From contig NC_070569.1 of assembly GCF_026914185.1 (NCBI RefSeq), positions 5,828,001 to 5,892,000 of the forward strand: a stretch of DNA of 64,000 bases. Direction: 5' to 3'. Shown piece after piece: positions 1-34,293 of this stretch. Made by a program: the position numbers and the translations under genes. The notes below the pieces were generated by a model. That model had not been told where the DNA came from and did not search any database. It saw nothing but the letters and a program-made list of their open reading frames with translations. This DNA is from Puccinia triticina (lineage: Eukaryota; Basidiomycota; Pucciniomycetes; Pucciniales; Pucciniaceae). Every line of letters begins with the position of its first letter. Positions within the stretch are counted from its first letter, which is position 1.

Positions 1-1504
1 GCCTGCCTGTTTGCTGGCCGCCGGTGCCGCCTGTTGCGGCCCGGTTGAACGACTGCTTCCCTGGACCGGGGGGCGGTGATTTGATGCGCCAGATGATTTT
101 TCCAACATCTCATTTGCCAGCTTATCGAGGTCCATGCGTTCACTCGCGATATGTTCTGCGTGGAATTCGCCAACTTCTTGTAAATAGTTATCCCCATATG
201 CGTCGCGGGGGTAGCAATTGGGTACAGTTTGCTCGGTCCGTTCTTCAGCGGTAGGGCTTCGGGTGTCTTTGCGGTCCAACAGGCCTTTTACCAACATCTT
301 CTTTTGAGGGGTTTTGGCACGCTGCAATGCAGCACGGTCAATACAGCGAATTATGTTTTCCATTTGCGCGCTCCGCCAGTATGCTGTGATTCGTCGAGGC
401 AAGGAGTTCACATCGTCTTCTTCAAAGTCCGAGACTGCATCTGGATCACAAAGTAAATGCCCCAGAATCTTCTTTGTGGGGTAGAGGGATAGGAAGGTGT
501 CCGCGCGGAGGTTGGCAATCTGATATAATTAAAGCCACATTCTTTCAATTAATCATGTTGTTCCAAGCGGGTCATGAGGACAAACGGAATGCACCTATCT
601 TACCTTTCTCTTTGTAGATCGAACATACTGGGTGCGCTTCCTCTGTGCGACCACAACAGCTGGGGTGACCTGAGCCTTCAACCTAGTCAACCCTTGGTTG
701 CTGACCCATTCGAAAAATCGTGTTTTGATTCCGGGAATTGCTGACTCAAGAACTTCAACATTGATGCGTTTCGCCCATGGCAGCCAGTGCCAAACCGTAA
801 TGTCTGCCATAACTGTGTTCCATAAGCAATCCCGTACAAACGGTGCATTCCAGTCAAAGGTGAAGCGGGGAAACCCATGCTTGGCTAGATTGGCTTCCAT
901 CTCCCTCTTCACATGGATCGAGACAGCTGAGGTCGTGTTAACGGGAGAAGCTCGGAAAGTCACAGGTACAAGGCAAGTTTTAAGTAATTCCATCTCAGTC
1001 TTCCGGATGAGTTTGATCTCCTGTTCATTTGCTTGCGGGTGCTTCTTCGTTGCTTCTTCCAATCGCTGACTAAAGGCTTCCTTTCGGCGCTCTCTCCAGG
1101 TGTCCCAATTCGCGAGTTCCTCTACAGTTACAGAAGTCGGAAGATCTTGTGGCTTTGCGTTGGGTGGTAGCCCCATCATGGCCCGAGTGAATGTTTGAAG
1201 ACTCCGTAGAACTTTGTCCCGATGATGAGGCTTCTCATCAGCTGCCCGCGTAATGATCCTAGACAAGTCCTGATTGGTTTGTCGGTCCTGAGTGCGGGCC
1301 TTGGTGGCCCTTCGGCGACGGCTGCTGCCTTCAGCTAGGGTTTCCAGCGGGACATCTGTAAACATAATTAAAAGCAAAACTCATTAGTCATCAGATTTAG
1401 CACACATCGGTACTTAGAGAGAAACAGCGATTACCTCCAACCGCTCTTTCAGTCAAACCGGGATCCACAGCTGCCTCCGTAAAGAAGATGTCATCAATAT
1501 CCAT
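1..1504 (-). CDS. Unrecognised lineage-specific protein, 3' part outside window
   Basis: Read on the minus strand as three exons: 1435-1504, 604-1355 and 1-519, with introns 1356-1434 and 520-603. All junctions are GT..AG and phases agree (1, then 0). The ATG at 1504 opens MDIDDIFF. Exon 2 would stop at 595 if unspliced, but AAAG/GTAAGA at 604/603 is a near-perfect donor and the next exon stays open to the left edge, so at least 447 residues are encoded and the C-terminus is missing. Visible features are an Arg-rich run near residue 36 (SSRRRRATK), a basic patch ending exon 2 (STKRK), a Trp-rich stretch (VWHWLPWAKR) and an acidic segment (DFEEDD) in exon 3. There is no signal peptide or membrane segment. 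I do not recognise the family; low-complexity charge and setting suggest a rust-specific multicopy protein. No function is proposed. Confidence 0.7.
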
Positions 1505-3694
1505 GACAAAAAACCGCGACGCTTGCAATCCGGGGGCGGCGATCCAACTACTAAAGGCTAGACAGGTAACGGGTGAGAAGTTGAGATGGTGTTGAGACTA
1601 CCGGCAAGTGTACTTAGTGTACTTGATGGATACACTACAGCTAATCAAGTACCAGGTCAACAGGGGCACATGCTCATTTTTGCGGCTTGACCCGGCAATT
1701 GAAATACTCCAAATCATCACTGAAAGGGGGACGCAAAGCCCGCACAACTTCCAATGAACTTCTTGAATTCAATTGGCTGCATGGAAGTTACATTCAACCA
1801 GGGCAAACTGCCTGTCTACCATCGTTTGTGTTATCTTATGTATCTGCATTTGTTCGTGTAAGGTATTTCCCACCCCAATGGATCACACTGCCTTAGTATG
1901 TACTCAAAATCACAGGGCATCCCATGTTGGTGGCGGTGGTCGGCTCCAGGAGATATGATTCTCAATGTATAACCAGAAAGCCAACCCCAAGCACCAGGAG
2001 CTCCTTGACTGATCACCTGTTACCTTGCGAAGCCAGATATTTATTTGGCTTTTGTGTGGCTCGGATCAGCCACTTAAGACTTAGGCACATTTGTTTTGTT
2101 TGTTGAGAGGGAGCAAGAGCGGTCCCAAGTAGCTTTAAGTGCTGACCTCAGGGAAAAGCATCAATAAAGGTGTGCAGAATAAGGTATCGGCCTTCACAAT
2201 CATCACCAGCTGCATCAATCAGGCGATCCCCACAACTGTCTTGATGCAATTCATATATAGCCTGCGCCCTATTGTCTTCAGTAAGGTGTGCCCGGCCGCT
2301 TGGACTTTGGCCAATCGTCCAACACAAGCACAATCAAGAAACGATGATGGGTGCTTGAACATGCATGTTCCCATACCCTCACAAATTGATTGTTGAATGA
2401 TAAGGCCTTCCACCTCTCAAAGCGAATTGAAGTAGTAGGTAAAGGTTTCCATCGATTTGGCCCTTGCCCAATGCAAAACCCTCCAAACTGCCATCCCAAT
2501 TCCCAGACAAGGTCAGACTTGCACGATTGTCCATCTTGAATCACGATCTCGATTGATCCAGATCGTGATCTGACCTGGATGACTATCCTGCACCTGAAGA
2601 ATTGTTCAAGTTGGATGATCGTCCAAGTTGGACGATCGTCCAAGCTGGCCAATTGTCCAATCATCCGAGCGGCGTAGCTGGGATGGATATCATCATGGAC
2701 ATTTGTCTACAACTCCATTTTCCACCAGAATGATAGAGTCTCTCTATGGCAGAATTTCAGACAATGTGCGGACATCCCGCACACATACATATCTACTCCT
2801 GTTATTCACTTAGGTCGTAGCAGTTAGGTGCCCTCCACACCATTGCGGCCTATTATGTACATACATTTGCACAAGTCCAAACAATTTTGACATGGCGCAA
2901 AGTTATATGTATGCGCCTGCGTAGGCATGTATGATCATCGAACATTACATAGTGAGCCTGAAACGTGACAATGAAAATGTACATGAATCCGGACGTACAT
3001 ATAGCTGCAACCAATCACCCCACAAGTGAGCGCCCAACTTCTTTCACCTCCCCTTCACTTTCCACGCTATGTACATTCTAAGAAATATCTTATCTTGCTC
3101 TTTTGGAAAGGTTCACCCACTTACAGTTTGGGAACATCAACATCGACGCTCTGGCCCTTGTCGTTCCTCTATCCCTTCTGCTGACGTCCCATGAGCTCAT
3201 CAATTTTCAGCGCTTTTCTAGCTTCAGAATTCTATGTAAGCCTCATCTCCCTTCAAGCTTTCGCGTATGTTTGAGCTCAACGCCTTCCTTTGCTCACGGC
3301 CCTATCTCTTTGCAGACTTGAAGATTAGATCATAAACTTAATCCCTTTTGTATTTTCATAGCAGCTGCCTTCCTTTGAGCTTTCCGTCAACAATCCAAAC
3401 AATCATGAATGGCTCAGGTAGTCCGTCATCATCTGTCCGTAGGTCAGCTTTTCTACAATTTTCAAGCTTTCTTCCCACTACCTTCAACGATCGGTCCCTC
3501 CCCCAAAATAGTCTGCCATGTAAGGGTCTCAGTCTCGTCTTTGTTCCTTGGTGTTGTCTTTCCCCCCCTCTATCAATCTTCACTTGTCAAGCCGGCCAGT
3601 TTCATCCTTGTTAACTCTCAAAAAAATCTATCTATTCATTCCGTCACACTAGTGCACTCCCCTCCCACTTTTACTCTCCCCAGGCCTTATCTCT
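1505..3694. other. Divergent intergenic region, no gene seen
   Basis: This is the shared upstream region of the two flanking genes. The right third (about 3050-3690) is strongly pyrimidine-rich on the plus strand, with possible splice borders in what is probably 5' UTR of the plus-strand gene, such as a donor near 3235 and an acceptor TTTGCAG near 3315. Short ORFs here lack recognisable domains. Two palindromes at 2540-2637 are listed separately. Confidence 0.5.
2540..2637. repeat. Pair of perfect inverted repeats
   Basis: ATCACGATCT at 2540-2549 is repeated inverted at 2560-2569 with a 10-nt loop. GATCGTCCAA at 2617-2626 is inverted at 2628-2637 around a single base. Related GATCGTCCAAG-like words recur to about 2660 and near 2318. 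This could be the inside of a decayed MITE, or a cluster of dyad binding sites between two divergent genes. No terminal repeats or target duplication were found. Confidence 0.55.
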
Positions 3695-6154
3695 ATGGAT
3701 CCTGCTTCCGATGCCTCCCTGCTCCCAAATCCAGCCCTCCTACCAAACGCGCCCGCTCCGGATGTCCACAGTGATGCAGAAAATGTGGTCTTGTCTTCTG
3801 GTATGTACATCTAACACTTTCCTATCTCCTCCAAGCATTTACCAACTTCAAATTATGCTTTTGTAGCTTTAGATACGCTCAGGGGGCCGGCCCCTTCGCT
3901 CGAAGCCTACGCGAATTACAAGGCAATCTCACAACCTACTCTCCTTCGTAGTGAGAGAAGGCAAGCTGGAAAAAAGGAGTATGTGACGAGTTGTTCCAGG
4001 CTCGAGGAAATATTGGAGCAGGCTTTGGGTCTTTCAGAGTCTCTTCCTGTCCCTCCGGCCCAAATCATTTCCGGGATCAGAGACATCCAAGAGGAGTGCC
4101 AAAAGAGAAAGCAAGGTGAGTCATGTCTACGTGACTACTGGCTGCATGGTACAACACTAACTCCCCAACTTCTTTCAGACGTGAACGAAGGGAAGCCAAT
4201 CCCTCCGGAGGATTTGATAGACCTTACGAACGAGAGCGACGATGAAGATTTTGATAAATCCACGCAAGTAACCTCAGCTTCCAAATCACTCCCCAAACGT
4301 AAGCGCTTAGAGGACAACAAATTACCGTGCAAAAAAACGAGTCCCCAGCAGTCCCCTCGCCCAGAATCCCCCCATTCTTCCCCATCGGTCGGCCAACACA
4401 AGCCAGATCATCTTGGTCCCGCCGAGGATGCTCATGATGCCCCGTTACATGGAAAAATAGGTAAGTTTTTATTCGACTTCCCCTTCATTGTTCAAAGTCT
4501 AAATGTGGCTTTTTTGTAAGATCATCCAGACGCTGCATCTCGGACCGCCTCACATACCACCGGTACCCTTCCTGAAATTGCTGCCCCTGCGGCCACCACC
4601 ACACTCAACTCAACTCGGCCAGATCTTGCTAAGACTCAGACACCAGCCAACTTGACTGACGAGCAGGTGCGAGTGAATCTTTCCTCAGCAACATCGACTG
4701 GTCCGACTTCTACCAACAATCAGGCCTTACCACCCGCTACTGGGCCACAAGTCAACCCCAATTTGCCTCATGATAGCTTCCCAACTCCTTCGCCGGCCAA
4801 TCCCACCAATGCTCCTCTCCTTAAAGCACCACCTGCCCCCATGATCACTCTTCTCTCATCGGCCGCAAACACAGGCTCAGCACATCCTGCTCCTTCAGAT
4901 CAAACACACGCTCCTTCTACATCTACCAGCCAGCCAAGTCCTATCAGTTTCATCAAAGACGAATCTATCAGAAGCGAGGTGCATGTCATCCTGAAGAATT
5001 TCCAGGGAAACCTCAACCGTCAAAAGTTCACGGCTGCGCACAATTCTATCCATTCCTTCCTTGACTGTTGAGCAAAATCTATGCACAAGAGGACCCCGCC
5101 ACCGGATTTACCTCAGTTCAGCTTGGTTCAGTCTGAATCTACCCATAAATCTTGGTTGAAAGAGATTCAAAAGCATTGTAAGTCTGACCGTTTGCCGGAA
5201 TATTATTTTTCATAATAAATTGCTTTATCTCCTTCTTAATTCACCCTCTTCTTTTGTTTCAATTCAGTGGGAACGATTTTATTACCCGCAAACGATGAGC
5301 CTTGGTTCGCGCCTACATTGATTGATATCTCACAAATCCAGTCGGCAAACCTCGAAGACTTGAAGGCAAGTAGCCATGTCGAATTCAGCTTTGCCCTGTT
5401 GCTTTGGGAAATCCAAAAACCGTCAAAGCTCCAGTTGTCTCGATGGTCCAACTGCATCGCCACCTCGATCCAGTTGACTGCACAAGGATTCTCCGTTAAG
5501 CCGCCGCCATTAGCCAACTTGGAAAGCAACAACCTTGGGTCGCATTTGCGCATTCTTGACTATCTGACTAACTGCAAGACTTCTACATCGAACTTGAATG
5601 CAGACGACGGAACCGTGCGCAACGACATGGCACTTAAACCCTTGAATCAGTTGCATGACTTGATAATCGATGTTTTCATCACCTACGGAATCATCCGAGG
5701 TTCTGCTGCCGCCGATGTGGAACCCAAGGCAAATTCTGCAGATAGTCAGGAACTCGTGCTGCAAAAGAAGGACCTCGAAAAATATTGCTCAAGACATAAT
5801 TATATTCCTTTCTGCCTTTACCTTGTCGCTGGTGTTCGTGGTCTTATGTTGGCTCCTAACAACCGGCAGTTTGCCTCCGGTGCATCGACTTTGGGTTTCC
5901 TGAGCGCTGTGGAACTCCTCTTCAAAAAAAACGTTCCTCAGCGCGAGGCTTTGGAACCTGTTTGGAAAAGGCTTGGCTCCTATATTGACGGTCTTTTCAT
6001 CAAATCTTTCCTCACCCCCAACTGCCTATTCAATTTCCGCCGTCCACAAATCCTTCAACTTGCCAAAGCAATTACCGCCGACTTCCTAGTTTGCCTTCAA
6101 AACCAATTCCCGGCGACTAAATTTGAACTCCCTCGCAGCATTACTGCCAAATGA
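3695..6154 (+). CDS. Unrecognised protein with SUMO-interacting-like motif; one in-frame TGA
   Basis: Five exons: 3695-3800, 3867-4115, 4179-4460, 4521-5177, 5268-6154. All introns are 60-90 nt, GT..AG and phase 1. The model spans 727 codons, but codon 396 (TGA, 5069-5071) interrupts an otherwise open frame that continues in phase through exon 4 and the whole of exon 5. As it stands, translation would give 395 residues. The N-terminal part holds IDLTNESDDED (a hydrophobic core followed by acids, as in SUMO-interacting motifs) and a basic KRKRLEDNK patch. The middle is Pro/Ser/Thr-rich. The last 295 residues look globular and hydrophobic (for example YIPFCLYLVAGVRGLML) with no family I recognise. 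Because both sides of the TGA are intact and spliced, a recent nonsense allele or a base error is more likely than an old pseudogene. Confidence 0.72.
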
Positions 6155-22920: not shown

Positions 22921-22928
22921 CACACTCC

Positions 22929-22975
22929 ACCAGGGTTGATTTTCACGCACTCTCCAGAGAGTGCCATACCATACC
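22929..22975 (+). repeat. Orphan end of the CACCAGG element family
   Basis: CACCAGGGTTG is followed by GCACTCTCCAGAGAGTGCCA, the same palindrome that follows CACCAGG at 23987 and 27249. No partner end was identified, so this is a fragment. Confidence 0.6.
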
Positions 22976-23030
22976 CTTTTTCCGGAACTGTGCTGGATGC
23001 TTTTGGTGAAAGTAATGTAAGAAATAATAA

Positions 23031-23181
23031 GGGGTTTCAAAGTAGACCCGCGCATGCAACTTGCAAGGCAAGGCAAGCGGGCGTTCAACTCAAATGTTGA
23101 ACATTGACTTGCAGTCTCCCCGCAAAACTGGGTTATGCAAAGTGACCTGCATGCACGTGCGGGTCTACTTTGAAACTCCCC
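23031..23181. mobile_element. MITE, family GGGGTTTCAAAGT, copy 1
   Basis: GGGGTTTCAAAGTAGACCCG at the left pairs with the inverted CGGGTCTACTTTGAAACTCC at the right; inner arms GCATGCA/TGCATGC follow. It is 151 bp with no coding capacity. The related longer copy is at 46963-47184. Confidence 0.8.
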
Positions 23182-23986
23182 AATGAACAATGCTTGAACT
23201 CGTCCACAAATGTTCTGAAACTGATCCTGGATTCATCCATAAATCATCAAGAAGTCATGCAGAACTCAACTGGAACTCAATCAGAACACAGTTGAAACCA
23301 CTAATACACAATGACCACAATTGCATAATAACTCAATTTGACCTGTTTGTTGATTGGGATGATTTCTTGGGGTTCAATTCATGTTATTCACATGCTCATG
23401 AAGGTGTTCATTGTTTTCACTTTGTTAATTTTTCCCTCATGTGCGCGCATAAAAGGTTGTTACAAATTGCAGGCTGGGCCTCTTTCAGATCAACAACACG
23501 TACACACTGGTAAGAATGATGTGAAAGGCCTGCCTGGATTGTCATATTTCCCTAAAAAAAGGCAGGTATCATCTATAATTGAGTCAAAAAAGGATGAAAA
23601 TAGGGTGAAAGTATGTTTCAAGTCAAGCTTGGAGGTTTGTGGTACAAGATTTCAGCTAAACAACTTGGCTTCTTAACACATATAAGCTTGTGAGTCGTTT
23701 TTATGGTTTTTTGTTTTCCAATGTCTCCGTCTTCATCCACTTCCTCTTCTCCGCCCTTGTCACCCTCGGCCTGCTCCTCCTCCTACCCAAGGCCTCCCTT
23801 GGCGAACCCGGAACCTGTCCAGACACCCCCATCTCATTCTGCCAACATGCACATGCATGTGAGCTGTTTTCCATTTTGACAATTTCACCTTTGTGTACAC
23901 GCGTGCATTGGGGTGACAGATCACCAGAGGGGACTTTCACAGCTCCATGACAAGTAAAAACTGGTCAGAAAGCCATTAAAGCCCTG

Positions 23987-26983
23987 CACCAGGGGGGAAT
24001 GTGTTGCACTCTCCAGAGAGTGCCAGACCATCATTTCTCTCTAGAATTATGCCAGATATGATCTGTTGCATCATGTGTAACTGAATCACAGGTTAGTCTT
24101 ATGTATATACTCAACTCATATTTATCTGATATGTATTAAATCTTGTTAGATCTGGTGAGTCAAACTCAACTAATGGATTTCTCCACTGCGTGGCCAGTAC
24201 AAACAGGGATTCTCCACTGATTGGTTTGTACCCATCATCAAGTGGGGACATTTTCACTTTATTAATGGCTTTCATTATGGCCATCAAGTGGAGAAACCTT
24301 TGAATTGATGACTGGTTTTTACTGCCATCAAGTGGAGAAAACCTTTGATCAACTTCTGTATTGTCCATAGAGTTAAGAAATCTTCCACTTGAAGACCATG
24401 TATGCTGGCCATTGAGTGGAGACATCCTCCAACTCAATGACTGGTTTGTATTTCCATTGAGTGGATGAATTCTCATCTCAATGACTGGTGTACACCAGCC
24501 ATTGAGTGGAGACACCCTCCACTTGATTAAAGTTTACTGGTCTGTGGAAAGCCCAGTCAATGATACATACATCTTTTTCATTGAGGAGGTCCTTTCCCAG
24601 ATTGGTGAACCAGCAATTACTGTATGTACATTGGGCTGGGAACGTCCCGTCTCAGCGGCCAGTAAATGCTTGCCATCCAGCTGGGATTTTGCGAGCTGGA
24701 TGGCCAGTATATACTGCCTACCAATCTTGGGAGGGCCAGCTCAATGACCGGTATGTGCTGGTCATCGGGCTAGGGATTTTCCATTTTCATGACCAGTAGG
24801 TACTGGTCATCAGATTTGAGCTTGGTTGATGTGCACTGAACTTGTCGACCACCATGTTCGGCAAAACATGGCGGTGGACAAATGACAGGGGTCCTTGAGT
24901 TGGGGAAGCCCATCCCAATGGCTAGCACATAATGGATATTGTTCCAGCCTTTCTGAGATTGGCAGGCAGTATGTACTGTCCACCAAGCTCGGAAAAGCTC
25001 AACTGTATGGCCAGAATGTGGTCTTCATTGAGATGTGACTCTCCCAGCGTGATTAAACGCACACACTGCTCATCAATTCTGAATACATGTGCAAGCTGCT
25101 TGTAAATGTCCACCCCAATGTTTGCGCGAACATGAGGGTGGACATAACATAAGAAAAAAACACTCCCCAAGGAAACAGGGGGATGCTGAGCCAATCCATG
25201 TTTCCCCACGCGGCCATAGTTCACTTGTGCCAACCTTCAAGCCCCCACACACACATTTTTTTAATGATTACAATCACATATCTGTGTCCCGATTTTCAAT
25301 AATTCTGAGTGGTAAGGATACAGCAGGTCTGCTTTGCAGGAGTTTTAACTTATAGCCGGTTCTACTGAAGGACCATGTGATAAGAGCAATCAACACCATT
25401 TTTTGCACCATGCACATGGAAACAAAGGTGCCTGTGATGAAATAATTCTATGAAAAGGAGAAATGTAATGGGAACTGGTTGTGGAAAAGATGTGAAGATG
25501 ATGAATCTACAAGAAAAAAGGTATTGCCCACACTGGGATGTTCCTGGGAATTCAAGAATTGAATGTTCACATTGGAGTTCTCAGACCAGCTTTTGAATTA
25601 TTTCTCCAGCTGCCTCCAGGAGCAAGGGAATACTGGTGCGCCTGTTAATATCCACCAATATACTTTACCTTGAGAATCTTTATTTAGGCCTCTAGAACCT
25701 TCAATTTTCAGCCAGTTCTAGGTAAATTTACAAGAATTGTACAATTTTTATTCTTCCACTAGCCAAGAGGCATATTCACAAATGAACAGCTATTCACACT
25801 TCAAACATTAACATTGCTTTATGGTTCATACCTTGGTGAAAATGGTTGGGAAAACTCCGTTAATTGCACATTTCATATTGCTGGTTGTAAAATTGCACAT
25901 TGCACGGGTTTGCCAGGCTTTAGCAGTGGGCCCTGTTTGATACTTGAAGAATATAAATTTTGTTGAGTTTTTGACCTCAGGTTTCTTCCCTTTCTGCCTT
26001 CTACCTCATTCCCCTTCCTGCTCACTCTCAAATGAGTCCATCTGATTCAACTTCTTCACTTCTTATGTTCAATCACATCTTATGATCTGGTGTAGTTAGT
26101 GGTCATGATTGTATCCGTACTTGCCTTGTGACCTCGTTCCCTGCCGAGATTAGATTATCAATCTTTCTCAATTCCCCTTATTCTCTGATGTGTGCGTGCT
26201 CTGCTTGTGACAGTCCTGATTCATTTGTGATATCTCTCAGAGTTTGAGAATCTTCTATTCAATTTCTTTTCATATTCATTATAGCTCTCAACCACAAGTT
26301 GATATCATGTACTTAGTCTATATATACATTGCCTAGTACACTGAAATCAAATCATTGGTTCATCTCATTCTTTTTCCGCGTCACCCTTGAGCCGCATCCA
26401 GTGAGCACTCATACTCACTGTCCCCCTTCCTCAAGCCTTTTTGGCCTCTCTTGTTGTGCTCGCTTTAGACATTGCTTCCGGAGTCAAATCTCAACAAATT
26501 TGATGTTGAACAACTTTGCTCCCAATTTAATATGTGAATTGGCATGGCAGAAATGTTCCAAAAGGATTCATCTGCCAGCTTCATGATCCTCTGAAGATGC
26601 TATATCTTACAATCATGTTTCATAATGTGATGTTTTGTGTTTTTTGAATGAAAAAACTCTGTGATTCAAAACATTCCCTTGCACTTGGCTAAGTATATAT
26701 TTTGGCATAAAGATAGATAAATTCTCAAAATTATTTCTGTGAAATGAAGCTCACTTCTGAATTTGTTACCATGATTAAACAAACACAAAACTTCAGCAGA
26801 GATATGTTTGTGTGCTGGCATTGAGTGACACATCACTGCACAACAAATTGACCTACAGTTAATGTTGCATTGTGTATAAAGTGGACAAAGAGTTAAAATT
26901 AACATTTGACTCACATCAGACCCCATGACAAAAAAATTACAGCATGGCACTCTCTAGAGAGTGCAACACTTTCCTCCCTGGTG
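23987..26983 (+). mobile_element. CACTA-like non-autonomous element, copy A (2997 bp)
   Basis: The ends read CACCAGGGGGGAATGTG and CTTTCCTCCCTGGTG, each followed inward by the palindrome GCACTCTC(C/T)AGAGAGTGC. The trinucleotide CTG flanks both ends (23984-23986, 26984-26986), a 3-bp target duplication. Terminal CAC, a 3-bp duplication and dense subterminal hairpins (24160-24560, core CCATCAAGTGG/CCACTTGATGG) are hallmarks of CMC/CACTA elements, where the transposase binds subterminal repeats. Inner palindromes include ATGACCAGTAGGTACTGGTC near 24796. The interior has many stops in all frames and no recognisable transposase, so it is probably non-autonomous. Copy B lies inverted 265 bp away. 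Confidence 0.78.
24160..24560. repeat. Subterminal hairpin cluster of element A
   Basis: Units of 40-60 bp contain CCATCAAGTGGAGA, its complement, CATTGAGTGGAGAC and CTCAATGACTGGT. They match, inverted, the cluster at 30050-30400 in element B. Confidence 0.8.
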
Positions 26984-28527
26984 CTGGCTAGTCATATTTA
27001 TGTTGTGTGAAACCCCTTGCACATAGAGAAATTTATCAACATAAATTCACCATAAATGATTGATAATTGGGCATTGAGTAAGTATCATTTCATTATAGGT
27101 TGTAATTGAGTTATCCTTAAAGAATGGAACAGTTCTATACAACATTGAATGAGTTCCTGTGATACTTCCTCATAAATTATGAGAGACTTCCCATTGACTT
27201 CTGAATACAATTTTCAATGTTTACTTTGATCAATCTATGCCCAATACACACCAGGGGGGAATGTGTTGCACTCTCTAGAGAGTGCCAGGCCGTAATTTTA
27301 TACCCAATCAGGTCTGATATGAGTCCAATGTTAACTTGAACTCTTTCTTCACTTTATTCCCAACACAGGGGTAACTTTAGGTCAAGTTGTTTTGGAATAA
27401 TCTTTCACTCAATTCCATAACATGAATATCTCTCTGGTGAATTTTTGTGTTTGGTTCATCATGATCACAACTGTGGAATGAGCTTCAATGCACAAAATTT
27501 TTGCCAAGAATTTCCCTATCTTTATGCTCAAATATCTCCTTAGCCAAGTGGCAGGGACTATTTTGCATTGCAGAATTTTTTCATTCAAAACAAAAATAAC
27601 GTCACATTATGAAAAATTCTTGTAAAATATGGCAACTTCAGAGGATCAGCCAACTGGCGGATGAATCCTTGCAGAATATTTATGACATGCCAGTCCCCGT
27701 ATTCCATTGGGCAGAAAGTGGTGTGAAATCAGTTTTGTATTCTTCAAGTATTGAACAGTTCCAAAGCTAGGAATGCCTGTGTAATGTGGAATGCACTCCC
27801 AGCAACATGGAATGTGAAAATACAGGAGTCGGTTTTCCGTACCATTTCTACCAAGTTATGAACCATAAAATAATATGAAAGTTTGAATTATGAATAGCTG
27901 TTCATTTGGGAACCTGCACCTTGCCTAGTAAATGACTACAAATCATTCAATTTCTGCAAATTTAGTTACCACTGACTGGAAAATGCACGGCCTAGAGGCA
28001 AAAATAAAGCTTCTGATAGGAAAGGGGGGTATATTGGTGTATATTGACAGGTGCACCAATATTCCCTTGCGACTGGAACCAGCTGGAGAAAAAAATCAAC
28101 AGCTGGTCTGAGAACTCCAAAGTGAACAGTCTATTCTTAACTTTTTGTGCACATCTAATCGTGGGTAACACCTTTTGTCTTGTGGATTGACCATCTTCAC
28201 ATCTTTTCCCCAAAACGTTTCCATGAATTTTCTCATATTTGATGCATTTTTTCATCACAGCTACCTTTATTTCCATGTGCATGGTGCAACAAAATGGTGC
28301 TAATTGCTCTTGTCACATCGTGCTTAAGTAGCACTGGCTTTTAGTTATGACTTCGGCACTGTTGACGTGCTGTATCCAGACCACTCAAAATCGTTGGCTT
28401 TAGGACAGCAGGAGCAGCGCAAATATGTGAGGACAAGCATTAAACAAATGTGCGTCCGGGGGTTTGAAGGTTGGTGCAAATGAACTATGGTTGCGTGAGG
28501 AAACACAGTTCGGCTCAGCATCCCCCT

Positions 28528-29376
28528 TGAGAGAAAACAGGTTTTATTATTGAAACTAGGACCAGAACTAAAATAAAAGGATCAGAATACAATAAAAAGT
28601 TTAAGGATGAAAGAGTTTGAAGAGAGACAATGATCGTACCACGATAGGATTGAGTTTTTGGAGGAATCAAGACAGCCAAACAAAAGTAAATGAAGGTAAT
28701 AGACACTGCAAAAATAAGATTTGTCGAATGAGAGAGGTCAATAAGGAGATTGAATGAAGGTTTGCTGAGAGGTTTTTTAGACTGTTTTCTCACCAAATTG
28801 GAAGTATCCAATTGATGAATTCAAGGTTGAGAGTCGGAGCGATCAGAATGAGCTGAGGTGAAGCTGAAGTTGGTGCGATGTGAGATCGGAACCGATGAGA
28901 TCGAATGATGAGTGAGAATAGCGAGAGAAGGAATAGAACAAGGGAAGGAAGGAGACGAAGTCGGACTGAGAAGTTGAGGTATGGAATGTTGATTGATTTT
29001 TTAGGGTAGGAGAGTAGGTTGGGCAGCTGAGTAGAAGTCGAATGTCGCAGGGAGAGAGGCGAATGTCGAAGAGGCCGCTGACGAGAGATGGCCAGCTTTT
29101 ATAGGTTTGAGAGGGAGGCCGAGTTGTGGTTGAGGAGATTTGAGGATCGGGCCGACTTGTGGTTGAGGACCGGATTGAGAATTGATCAGTTTCGTCTCTG
29201 TTGAAGTGTTTCGAGATCGTTCTTGTTTGAGGATGATTGAGGTGTTTGAAGGAGAAAAAAGGAGAGTGCGGCGGAGTAAGCGGATGAAGAATGAACGGGG
29301 AGAGAAGCGGGGAAGACCGAGGGAACGGAGACTCCAAGCGAAGACTGGAGAGATCATTCCTGGCAGAATTCCAACA
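28528..29376 (-). mobile_element. Solo LTR (849 bp) inserted in element B
   Basis: On the minus strand it begins TGTTGGAATTCTGCC and ends TTTTCTCTCA, i.e. 5'-TG..CA-3'. AGGGG flanks both sides (29377-29381 and 28523-28527), while element A has the same site uninterrupted near 25166. A TATA-like CTATAAAAG near 29098 and AATAAA near 28542 fit U3 promoter and polyadenylation signals. No internal retrotransposon sequence remains, so it is a solo LTR from recombination. The pyrimidine-rich strand gives long spurious ORFs (28843-29337). Confidence 0.85.
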
Positions 29377-30049
29377 CCCCTGTTTCCCTGGGGAGGATTT
29401 TTTTTTAATTTTTTAATGTCCACCCTCAGGTATGGGAGAATGTCAGGGTGGACACTGGCCAGCAGCTAACACCTGTACCCAGACTCGATGAACAGTTAGT
29501 GTGGTCCTTCGCGCTGGGAAAGTCCGGCTTGTTGTCCACCACATGCTGGCCATTCAGCTGGGATTTCCCGAGCTCTTTGGACAGTATATGCTGTCTAACA
29601 ACCTCAGAAAGGCTGGCGCGATGCCCATTATCTGCCAGTCATCGGGATAGGGCTTCCCCAACTCGGGGACCCCTGTCATTCGTCCACCGCAATGTGCGGC
29701 CGAACATCGTGGTGGACCAGTGCCCTGGACATGAATCCGCTGCCTCTCCAAGCTTGAAACCAATGACCAGTACCTACTGGTCATCAAATTGGTGAAGCCC
29801 TAGCCCGATGACCAGCACATACTGGTCATCTAGATGGCATTCCGAAGCTCTGTAGGCAGTATAAACTGGCCACTCAGCTTGCAAGAGCCCAGCTGGGTGG
29901 CCAGAATGTCCTGGCCGTTTAGCTGGGACTTCCCCAGGGCGATGCACATTAATTTCTGGTTCATCAAACTGAGAAAGAGAATCCTCAATCAGCAACATGT
30001 AATGGTTGTTGAGCTGGTCCTTTCACAGCCCAGCCACCTGTAATCAAGT

Positions 30050-30400
30050 GGGGGCTTTCTCCACTCAATGGACGATATACACAAGTCATTGAGATGAGAT
30101 TCTCTCCACTCAATGTCCATACAAACTGTTCATGCAGTGGAGTGTTTCTCCACTTAATGGCTGTCATACATGGTCATCAAGCGGATGATTTCTCTGCTCC
30201 ATGGCGAATACAGACAAGCATAGAATGGAGGATTTCTCCACTTGATGGCCATCTAAACAAGTCATCAAGTGGAGGGTTTCTCCACTGGATGGCCATACAA
30301 CCCAGTAATAAATTGGAGGCTGTCTCAACTGGATGGCAGGTACACATCGGTTGGTGGAGAATCCCTTTTTGTACCGGCCACTGAGTGGAAATATACCCAT
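30050..30400. repeat. Subterminal hairpin cluster of element B
   Basis: CCACTTGATGGCC, GTCATCAAGTGGAG, CCACTCAATG and related words alternate in both orientations; this is the inverted counterpart of 24160-24560. Confidence 0.8.
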
Positions 30401-30696
30401 TAGTTCAGTTTAAATTGCAGGATACAACAAGATTAGATACAGATAAGATCAGTATGAGTTGATTATAAACATACAACCAACCCACAATTCAGTTACACAT
30501 GAGACAATGGAACATATCTGGCAGAATTCTAGATAAAAAATATGGTCTGGCACTCTCTAGTGAGTGCAACACATCCCCCCCTGGTGACAAGATTGCTTTT
30601 GCGAAGTGCTGGACAGGTAGGGAATGGGCTTTTGTCAAAGTGTGCATGCTTTGCGGTTATTACTTGCTTATCCTCCAGTTTAAATATTTTTTAGGA

Positions 30697-31160
30697 GGAT
30701 TAATTGTTTTCATAACCTACCAGAACTCCTTCCCAGGAGATTGAGTAAAATTTGTTGAGACAGTGTTGCTTGGGTTTAACCACCCAGACGCGGCAGCCAA
30801 ACAGTTTGAAGAAATTTATGTTTGGAGGAACTTTGAAGAGAAGTTTGACTGGACACTTTTTGCTCTTTGCTAGAGATGGTAGGCAGTTTGTTGTTGCTGT
30901 GGCCATTTGAACAGCCTCACCCCACCATTTGGGGGCCAGATTTGACTGCATAATCATGCATCTTGTCATCTCAATCAGAGTCTGATTTTCTTGCTCTGCT
31001 AAGCTGTTGTTCTGAGGTGCATACGGCAGAGCCACATTGTGCTGGATTCCAGCTTCCTTGAGGAGCTCACCTAAAACCTGATTACAGAACTCCCCACCTC
31101 TGTCTGTGATGAGCTTTTTCATGATGAGGTCAGTTTGCTTCTCAAAGGTTTTTCTGTAGA
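30697..31160 (-). pseudogene. Ty1/Copia integrase fragment
   Basis: The minus-strand frame reads TFEKQTDLIMKKLITDRGGE, HNVALPYAPQNN, LAEQENQTLIEMTRCM, PKWWGEAVQMATA, and LFGCRVWVV ending VGYENN. This is the C-terminal half of a Copia integrase core, including the second catalytic Asp (TDRGGEF) and the Glu (AEQEN), plus the GYxxN-type downstream box. The upstream His-Cys finger and the first Asp, and the following reverse transcriptase, are absent. Both borders abut unrelated repeats, so this is a truncated relic. Confidence 0.88.
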
Positions 31161-31177
31161 GACTGTAAAGTGAAGAT

Positions 31178-31262
31178 GTGTCTGGTGAGAGTCAAACTCA
31201 CGACCTCAGCTAAGCTGAGAAACATACTAGCAACGCTGAAACCGCTGCCCTAAATGTAGTTG
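31178..31262 (-). repeat. tRNA-like (SINE-like) sequence, class II shape
   Basis: On the minus strand, TAGGGCAGCGG resembles a pol III A box, followed by CTCAGC-TTA-GCTGAG (a perfect 6-bp variable-arm-like stem), then GTGAG-TTTGACT-CTCAC, a T-arm with a near-consensus B box (GTTTGACTC). The acceptor arms do not pair and the anticodon stem is poor, so this is not a functional tRNA. It may be a decayed Ser/Leu tRNA-derived SINE head. A shorter match to the T-arm strand occurs near 24150. Confidence 0.4.
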
Positions 31263-31303
31263 CAGCGGCCAGTAGCACATCTTAAAAAAGCACAGTTACA
31301 ATG

Positions 31304-31373
31304 CAGCGGTAGCGCATTGGCCAGCCGCTACACTGCATTGAATTTGTAGCGGCAGGCCAATGCGCTACCGCTG
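31304..31373. repeat. 70-bp near-perfect palindrome rich in GCGGTAGCGC
   Basis: CAGCGGTAGCGCATTGGCC at 31304-31322 is perfectly inverted at 31355-31373. An inner pair, CCGCTACA/TGTAGCGG, closes the stem around a short AT loop. Confidence 0.88.
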
Positions 31374-31410
31374 TTTCTGGATTGGTGTACAAAACGTGGC
31401 TTGCGGTGTT

Positions 31411-31640
31411 TTACTTCAGACCTGCCAGAAAAGACAGTCTAGGTCTAGCGGTAGCAGTACTGGTACCCGGAAGCTGGGTCCTAGCCCGGAGTTGTCGCAT
31501 CTTGACATTGGCTTTGTTCTCCGCTGATGTGACCCATTTTGCCACCAGATCAATCTGAAGTTCTAACAGGAGCTTCTGGATGCTCTTACACTCTTTGTTG
31601 ACGTGGATGTCGTGGGATACTACATATGGCCATTGTAATG
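31411..31640 (-). pseudogene. Probable LTR-retrotransposon RNase H C-terminal fragment
   Basis: The minus-strand frame has HDIHVNKECKSIQKLLLEL, IDLVAKWVTSAENKAN, then a degenerate tail. This order resembles the end of RNase H domains of fungal Gypsy-like elements, where (S/A)xxNxAD-LSRG normally follows; the expected D-LSRG is altered here. The assignment is tentative. Confidence 0.42.
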
Positions 31641-31952
31641 ACAAAAAAAAATCTCAAAAAAAGACACCACCCCCAAAGAAATCCTCCTTCCGCAAAAGGA
31701 CCATCCTGATGCCCCGGACCCTGGGGCATGACACCGGGGTCATGACCCGAACCCCGCTTTTGGGTTAACTTCACCCGTGGTGTACATGCTACCCCCCGGT
31801 AAGCGGTCACCGGTGGCCCCGACTGGTTTCGGTCGGTTTCTATGTACTTTCGTGCACTGCCTCGTTGTTCCACGAGTAAGACCACCCAGGACCAACTCCA
31901 CGACCATCAACCCTTCTCATCAAGAAGTACTCCCCAGCGAAGAATTTGCACG

Positions 31953-33168
31953 ATGTCACCAAATGGCTACCCCGTACCACCACCGTCTTACTCTGGACAA
32001 CAGCCTAAATCTCCCGACCAAGAACCACTCTTGCCAGACCACACCGATAAGCGTCGTGATGGCGCTGGCTGGGGACAAACCAATCTCAGGAACTCGTGGA
32101 GCGATCAAGCCCAGCCTGGTGACATTCCTGAAGACTTTCTGATCGGCGTCACCGTTTCTCAATCGAGTATCGAGATCAGGATGGCATTCATTCGAAAGGT
32201 CTAGTAAGGATTTCTCAACACAAAGTTTCAATATATCCCTTACGAGCCCAAGACAAGAAACCTAACTTGAGGCCGCATTCTCTCCGTTTCTTTTTATTTC
32301 TCCGACCGTAGTTCCATTCTTTTTCTCCAGATTGCAGCCACGACGATCGTTGCTAGTTTGATGCGGCTCGACAGCTGCCGAGCCTTGCTTCTGGCACACT
32401 CCTGGATCATATTCATCCCCCTCGTCGGTGCTCTGGTTAGCATGTTGGTGCTTTTTGCCAAGCGCCATTCATCGCCCGCCAATTTGATCCTTCTGGGGCT
32501 CTTCACCGTGCTGGAGGCCATGGGGCTTGGTGCCGCGGTGGCCTTTGTGAATACGGTCATCGTCCTTGAAGCACTTGTTCTGACCGGATTGGTCTTTATC
32601 GGCTTGACCATGTACACCCTACGTGAGCATCACTCATAGCATGCGTCCAATGTGATCATATTCTCATCTAATCTGTCTGCGTATTGTCTGTAGAATCGAA
32701 ACGGGACTTTAGTGGAATGGCCCCCTACTTGGGCACTGCCCTTATGGTGATGATCTTTTCGTCCTTCCTCACCCTCTTCTTCCCTCTCAGTCGGACGATG
32801 GATGCTGTTTACGCCGGGTTCGGAACGCTCGTCTTTTCGGCCTATATTGTGTACGTGCTTGCCTACCCATCAGTTCATCAATGGCTGTGATACTGAAATC
32901 TGTTTTGGATCGTTTGAACCCGGTAGGTTTGACACTCAAATGATCTGCAAACATCTGAGCCCCGATGACTGGGTCGTTGCCTGTGTATCACTTTACCTTG
33001 ATGCTGTGAACCTCTTCAGTAAGCATTTGGAGAGACGTGTTCTCTTTCTCCTTTATCACAATATGCTTTCCCCGCGGGCCTAGTTTTATGAACTAACTAC
33101 GGCTTCGCTTGATCTTCCTATAACCAGTCAACATTGTTCGCATCCTTTCTGACCTCCAAGAGCGTTAA
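31953..33168 (+). CDS. Bax inhibitor-1 / TMBIM family membrane protein
   Basis: Five exons: 31953-32203, 32312-32622, 32694-32850, 32927-33018, 33128-33168 (283 residues). A Pro/Gln-rich cytosolic N-terminus of about 55 residues leads to DFLIGVTVSQSSIEIRMAFI, the conserved entry to the fold. Seven hydrophobic segments follow, including IAATTIVASLM, SWIIFIPLVGALVSMLVLF, LGTALMVMIFSSFLTLFFPL and the family motif YIVFDTQMI..LSPDDWVVACVSLYLDAVNLF. The last exon adds INIVRILSDLQER. Members sit in ER, Golgi or vacuole membranes, leak Ca2+ and protect against stress-induced death. The TMBIM4/yeast Bxi1 branch is likely from the FD.Y and LDxxNLF motifs. Unspliced reading would end early at 32888. Confidence 0.95.
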
Positions 33169-34293
33169 GCATTTTCCCATGGCGAAATGCTTTCATTGCA
33201 TCTGACCACCCATACGTAAATATGCACGTAAAACTCGCCATGCATCCAATACCACAGCCTTCGAACCGTTACATTTCGCCAGACGAAGTCCCCCCCTCCC
33301 CGAGAAGTCTCATTCAGATGTGAATGGGCGGTCACTCAAAATCTTTGCAGGACACCTTCCTCTGGATTGTCGCTCCCAATTCATATGATCTAACTGTACA
33401 TCTCCTTAGCTCGCTTGTATTTCTTTTCTGTCATCTATGCTGCCTTATCTCGTTCGTCTCAATCCCATATGTATGTATACATGTGCACACCACATCGTTT
33501 GGCTCTCTAAAACTTATTCGAGCCTGACTGGCCAAGTTTCCAGCCCATGCTCAGTTATCATTCATATCACTCTTCTCCCCACCGTACGTGAGAATACGCA
33601 TGCAATCAGGCCCTCCACGTTACATATAACCGAGGTGTACAAATTTCGCAGTAAGATGGTCAACTCACAGCACCATCAAAATATTGTCTGCCCATAATCA
33701 TGAAATCCAGTGATTGATTGATCCAAGAACCAGATAATATAATGTGTTTGCAAGAGTGAGAGATCTGTGTGTAGATAAGGATAGGAACATCAATAAAAGT
33801 ACAAAGCTGCAGAGTTACGTTCCAGGAGAAACAGAAACACAGGGAAAGAAGCAAGGAGGAAAAAGGGAACAAGAAATAAAACAGGTGGAGAATGAATTGA
33901 AGAGAAGACATGATTTTTCATGAGATCATTTCCGTGTGAAAATATATAGTTATGTATAGCCAAATAATTGTACAAAATGAATGCTATCTATTGAGTCCTG
34001 GGCGTGCTGGTTCATGTTTGATTTGGGTGGAAGGAGACGGTTGACACTGGTGACAAAGGAAGCATGGTCTATTTTATTTTTCCCTTTTGATCTTACCAGT
34101 ACTAGAGCATATCTTCAACGATAACCTCCACTCTCCAGTAGGAGCATATTTTCAACGGGAAGTTCCACTTTCCAGTACCGTAATAACAGAAGCTTTGTCG
34201 ATTGAATCGGGACATAATTGTCAGCCATTGCTTTTCAATTTCGTCAGTGGTTTCGGACGTTTTTGGCCTGTTCGAAAGACTGGGGCTTGATCA
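33169..34293. other. Convergent intergenic region
   Basis: It lies between the 3' ends of the Bax-inhibitor (plus) and MFS (minus) genes. The short ORFs have biased hydrophobic composition from pyrimidine tracts and no recognisable domain. No repeat was noted. Confidence 0.5.

Follow-up and report, generated by a model that had tools for sequence, protein, structure and literature searches.

CACTA elements have been reported in the Pucciniales (PMC12210899), and EnSpm families of Puccinia striiformis, with related families in P. triticina and other species, are described as having 5′-CAC..GTG-3′ termini, 3-bp duplications and a Plavaka/EnSpm-like transposase (PMC12730594). In soybean, Tgmt* is described as a 20.5-kb putative autonomous CACTA element that carries tnp2, is flanked by a 3-bp duplication and has smaller non-autonomous relatives, among them deletion derivatives (PMC2613891). 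We analysed a 64,000-bp stretch of P. triticina DNA, hereafter the window (G000:C12:5828001-5892000; contig NC_070569.1), and searched the genome (122.8 Mb in 18 contigs) for relatives of two elements, E1 and E2, that lie in it; positions given without a contig are in window numbering. A CEF1 homologue has 91% identity to a Puccinia graminis cluster. A first-pass annotation had described E1 and E2 as two CACTA-like elements that form a 6.6-kb near-palindrome through independent insertions, perhaps a local re-insertion. The apparent near-palindrome consists of ordinary nested and stacked transposons, and their head-on arrangement as such very probably serves no function. E1 and E2, which belong to different subfamilies of one family, very probably inserted independently, by cut-and-paste with a 3-bp duplication, and came to face each other by chance. 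An ordinary explanation that has been tested thus takes the place of a striking one, in which local re-insertion had created a 6.6-kb palindrome.

E1 and E2 are both complete CACCAGG..CCTGGTG elements in mutually inverted orientation, separated by a 265-bp spacer, in accordance with the borders, ends and spacing first described (Table 1). Their terminal inverted repeats have CAC..GTG termini, are imperfect and extend over ~50 bp. Neither element has a recognised coding frame, and the two frames of at least 150 aa, which lie in or overlap an insert in E2, match no Pfam family. The variable 3-bp duplications of the family, the CAC..GTG termini, the subterminal repeats and a Tnp2 transposase frame in a 21-kb element with the same ends (see below) bear out the CACTA-like identity. 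Since Tnp2 is present in that 21-kb element and absent from E1 and E2, the two qualify only as non-autonomous members, and they are non-autonomous CACTA/EnSpm-type transposons. Miniature inverted-repeat transposable elements (MITEs) are short non-coding elements, usually under ~1 kb. We rejected this label for E1 and E2, each of which measures ~2.4–2.5 kb without its insert (2.45–2.49), resembling the dispersed single copies, and most full family copies measure 2.3–2.7 kb.

Table 1. Features in and around E1 and E2 (window positions)
Feature	Position	Strand	Description
E1	23987-26983	-	2,997 bp; CTG triplet at 23984-23986 and 26984-26986
E2	27249-30586	+	3,338 bp; ACA triplet on either side
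Subterminal repeat array in E1	24408-24521		45-bp unit, 2.5 copies, 75% matches
Subterminal repeat array in E2	30049-30338		44-bp unit, 6.6 copies, 68% matches
Insert in E1, probable solo long terminal repeat (LTR)	25961-26496		536 bp, TG..CA, AATTT on both sides
Insert in E2, probable solo LTR	28528-29376		849 bp, TG..CA, CCCCT on both sides
Older ~1.1-kb element, left part (host of E1)	22928-23986		CACCAGG and palindrome; collinear with three copies
~1.1-kb host element, continuation	26984-27225		Collinear with the same three copies; last ~88 bp missing
Copia-like fragment, right flank of E2	30595-31191	-	Frame 30700-31191: SH3_retrovirus 3.2e-9; rve below cut-off

Comparison with the described systems reveals both likeness and difference. 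Like the rust-fungus EnSpm families, E1 and E2 have CAC..GTG termini and 3-bp duplications; unlike them, they are non-coding, the described families being reported to carry a TET/JBP gene (PMC12730594). This comparison was made by description and not by sequence, and the E1/E2 family may already be catalogued. The 44–45-bp arrays occupy only one side of each element, resembling the asymmetric subterminal repeats described for Tgmt*, although Tgmt* is a plant element with 13-bp CACTA repeats (PMC2613891). E1 and E2 also resemble non-autonomous DNA transposons of rice, which are described as keeping the terminal repeats around an interior non-homologous to larger elements, with a CACTA target size of 3; in that account, however, the plant elements are on average much shorter and have the terminal consensus CACT(A/G) (PMC4423477).

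DNA searches with parts of both elements located family copies dispersed over nearly all contigs; the best 40 of 683 and 40 of 746 candidates were scored, so that the family counts are lower bounds. We checked for duplications in 50 merged stretches, which hold 25 pairs of ends that face inward and enclose no further detected end; pairs whose partner was undetected or unfetched were left out of the count. Exact 3-bp duplications flank 21 of the 25 end pairs of all kinds. The same is true, with many different triplets, of 16 of the 18 full copies of the 2.3–4.2-kb family (E1 and E2 included), which counts in favour of insertion with a 3-bp duplication.

E1 is nested within an older ~1.1-kb element that has the same ends. 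When the flanks of E1 are joined with a single triplet, they give a gapless 291-base alignment to three uninterrupted copies of this host (C3:614245-615356, C1:3981358-3982457 and C3:4648165-4649275), which provides the empty site of E1; with the left part of the host the three copies are collinear at 81–92%. The left flank of E2 is the remnant of the same host element, recognisable to ~27225, and the right flank is a fragment that we read as Copia-like (39 other scored genomic matches among 612 candidates). E2 sits exactly where the 1.1-kb remnant gives way to the Copia-like sequence (27219-27248 and 30587-30600). Either the host/Copia junction predated E2, or a flank was lost after E2 inserted; the excision-linked flank deletions described for rice DNA transposons (PMC4423477) serve here as a lead only. 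A search for the missing right end of the host element in 30587-33500 gave no convincing match (best score 32, without shuffles). A continuation of the Copia-like sequence to the left of E2 or of 22928 was tried and rejected, as alignments to three 351-base pieces of its relatives were not clearly above shuffles.

Several observations weigh against two clean insertions with 3-bp duplication. In four of the 25 end pairs the two triplets are not identical (CCA/GAT, GCT/CCT, TCC/GCC and TAT/TGT). In addition, the triplet at the empty site of E1 reads CCA, CCC and CCC in the three host copies, not CTG, so that what they confirm is the length of the duplication, 3 bp, and not its letters. Furthermore, the pre-insertion site of E2 was not found, its flanks belonging to two different repeats. 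Of the separate duplications originally proposed, the one around E1 is therefore backed by empty sites, while the ACA/ACA around E2 is only consistent with a 3-bp duplication.

In a maximum-likelihood tree built from E1, E2, 16 more full copies and two partial ones (20 in all), E1 and E2 fall in different subfamilies, and the splits that separate these have 100% support. Specifically, the nearest relative of E1 is C4:2412291-2414669 (95.3%), with a more distant member of the same group at C14:338593, while E2 groups with copies on C17, C5, C6, C7, C14, C4 and C15 (83–85%). The identity between E1 and E2 (76.7% across the 2,434 columns compared; 78.5% when the two are aligned as a pair with many gaps) is similar to that between E1 and the rest of E2's clade (74.9–76.4%), and thus neither a parent–daughter relation nor gene conversion is evident. 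A 40-column profile of nine representatives is nearly flat, with a mean of 0.84, and reveals no strongly conserved particular internal sites; its highs are the right end (0.92) and 28049-28128 (0.92), and the left end stands at 0.88. Taken with the separate triplets, the empty site of E1 and this subfamily split uphold the claim of two independent insertions, and it is the tree and the empty site together that distinguish coincidence from mechanism. On this reading, E1 inserted in the older element, whose ends carry the module found in E1 itself. E2 inserted 265 bp away, at the meeting point of the host remnant and the Copia-like fragment, and a probable solo LTR arose later in each.

The two arms are inverted over most of their length, and the near-palindrome stands to that extent; it is weaker than described, with an identity of 76.7% and an unshared insert in each arm. 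With the arms differing by ~23%, their collapse in the assembly is unlikely. The longest perfect runs between the arms in the pairwise alignment are 25, 25 and 22 bases. The 536-bp insert is missing from E2, from seven other elements compared and from the C4 relative of E1; it has 39 other scored genomic matches, many sharing its first base as their start, and two of them span from its first base to its last, so that its right border is matched elsewhere. The 849-bp insert is in none of the eight elements compared, and its genomic matches begin at its first base; no match elsewhere extends to its last base, and it is the CCCCT repeat that sets its right border. Both inserts thus match many genomic places with the same first base, as LTRs would, and are probably solo LTRs, judging from their sequence features.

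The first-pass annotation also envisaged a long hairpin RNA. Folded as RNA, the 6.6-kb strand reaches −3086 kcal/mol; 1,973 of the 2,997 bases of E1 then pair with E2, and the longest helix without a break measures 32. The control folds (one each) reach −2055 kcal/mol with E2 flipped and −1971 kcal/mol for a neighbouring stretch of equal length. A single transcript that covered both E1 and E2 could plausibly fold into a long, imperfect hairpin. The pair might then be a hairpin locus from which small RNAs directed at the family derive, consistent with a predicted fold ~1,000 kcal/mol steadier than the E2-flipped control and with small RNAs associated with DNA methylation, which are described for the stem rust fungus (PMC8444563). 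However, there are just three perfect runs of at least 21 bases, both arms are interrupted, and the same fold is expected from any two opposed family members. We consider such a locus improbable.

Still less probable is a parent–daughter relation between E1 and E2, in which one hopped beside the other in inverted orientation. Their common family, opposite orientation and 265-bp gap would fit such a hop; each, however, has closer relatives on other contigs than it has in the other, and the fully supported subfamily split rules out a recent hop; only if it were extremely ancient, or masked by gene conversion, could a hop go unnoticed. Local re-insertion, suggested in the first-pass annotation, is therefore abandoned in favour of independent insertion. 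Random placement of ~400 elements, a number roughly extrapolated from the ends listed, is expected to yield 0.39 pairs separated by 265 bp or less, and 33.5% of simulations contain one or more; a pair as close as E1 and E2 is thus unremarkable. The pair statistics cover C1, C2 and C3 to 5.69 Mb (100 of 543 ends), and in them the ends cluster somewhat, with six close neighbours versus 2.06 expected, a value reached in 3.2% of simulations. Close pairs also occur elsewhere: at C14:2782966-2790018, two more family members, of different subfamilies, point the same way with 1.8 kb between them.

A single inverted duplication or foldback element that produced both arms at once would account for arms inverted across most of their length, but it was rejected, as the outer triplets differ (CTG and ACA), each element has its own pair, host sequence is collinear across E1 and the two elements belong to different subfamilies. 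Nor was a trace seen of the replication instability that had been foreseen: both triplet pairs are intact and the spacer is collinear with the uninterrupted host copies, which argues against inversion between the arms, and gene conversion is not evident.

By the end motif of E1 and E2, a single large family of CACTA type can be recognised in a cereal-rust genome, and its probable autonomous members can be traced. At each of the four ends of E1 and E2, the palindrome GCACTCTCYAGAGAGTGC lies 12 bases inward of CACCAGG; its presence in both elements is as first described, with one mismatch in the copy at 30550. The window holds 10 two-strand matches to it with at most three mismatches, versus 0.08 expected from shuffles, so the palindrome is not a product of chance. 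Genome-wide, the exact end module (CACCAGG plus palindrome) occurs 543 times and its reversed control 0 times, and on contig C1 CACCAGG stands at the right distance for 40 of 53 exact palindrome sites. A fifth end with the same module, at 22928, was missed earlier and belongs to the 1.1-kb host element.

Elements with these ends also reach giant size. In particular, C1:52618-73672 is a 21,055-bp element with the ends of E1 and E2 and TTA on both sides; one of its frames, of 790 aa, matches Transposase_21 (E 1.5e-12), and two others contain parts of a SNF2 domain. Over 42% of the Tnp2 frame there is a 93% match to a P. triticina protein. To judge from these domain matches, this element is the likely mobiliser of E1 and E2: a Tnp2-type transposase of ~21-kb same-ended elements would move them in trans, recognising the module of CACCAGG and palindrome, perhaps with help from the 44–45-bp subterminal repeats. 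In a genome search for Tnp2, in which the best 150 of 179 candidates were scored, a match falls inside three of the 24 inward end pairs shorter than 35 kb, versus 0.24 expected (among the ends listed on C1–C3). Among the nine listed pairs of at least 20 kb, read by eye, five enclose a listed Tnp2 match (C1:52618, C2:1587401, C3:649086, C9:5148107 and C15:598475).

Two points count against this mobiliser. The other four of these nine pairs (C1:6199371, C4:8180827, C8:2477019 and C12:177963) enclose no listed Tnp2 match, and E1 and E2 have just ~50–150 outer bases in common with the 21-kb element. Because of this short shared stretch we rejected E1 and E2 as simple internal-deletion derivatives of the 21-kb element; the deletion derivatives of Tgmt*, by contrast, are described as having ~1 kb in common with the large element (PMC2613891). 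No TET/JBP gene was matched in the ten tested frames of the 21-kb element, and a genome search for Tet_JBP returned nothing, its controls being silent too. A literature search found no report of a fungal giant CACTA element with a helicase, which is not proof of absence.

More tentatively, one module (CACCAGG, ~12 bases and GCACTCTCYAGAGAGTGC) may define a whole trans-mobilised constellation of elements of 1.1, ~2.5, 6–9 and 21–30 kb, whose interiors seem unrelated. The giant elements with Tnp2 and a SNF2 helicase would be its drivers, the palindrome would be the transposase recognition site, and there would be some bias toward insertion into or near its own kind, as with E1. We regard this proposal as possible rather than probable.

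Further members and neighbours were observed. In the window, frames at 595-6154 are similar to ones in the 21-kb element (identities of 24% and 27%, with E values of 2e-29 and 2e-15), and ~3.6 kb to the left of the window there is a Tnp2 match (C12:5823828-5824412); together these probably represent another giant element. The ~1.1-kb host element contains smaller inserts of ~153 bp (23029-23181) and ~106 bp (23740-23845), the former being MITE-like with inverted ends and occurring also inside family members on C6 and C15. The family member at C1:4467329-4469218 has a ~254-bp internal segment in tandem, with query part 773-1019 matched repeatedly. Tubulin-like frames lie within an element of 8.6 kb (C2:2490071-2498688) that has the end module of E1 and E2 and is bordered by TAA on either side. 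The tubulin-like stretch has seven other strong matches (97–98%), none of them between listed ends of the E1/E2 type; capture of a tubulin-like gene by the family was thus rejected, as among the listed ends just one of eight strong matches is enclosed, and the unit may spread by other means. Finally, an element of 6.3 kb with the ends of E1 and E2, bordered by TGT on each side (C2:4965354-4971634), includes a frame that has a hAT dimerisation domain; a hAT element may be nested there.

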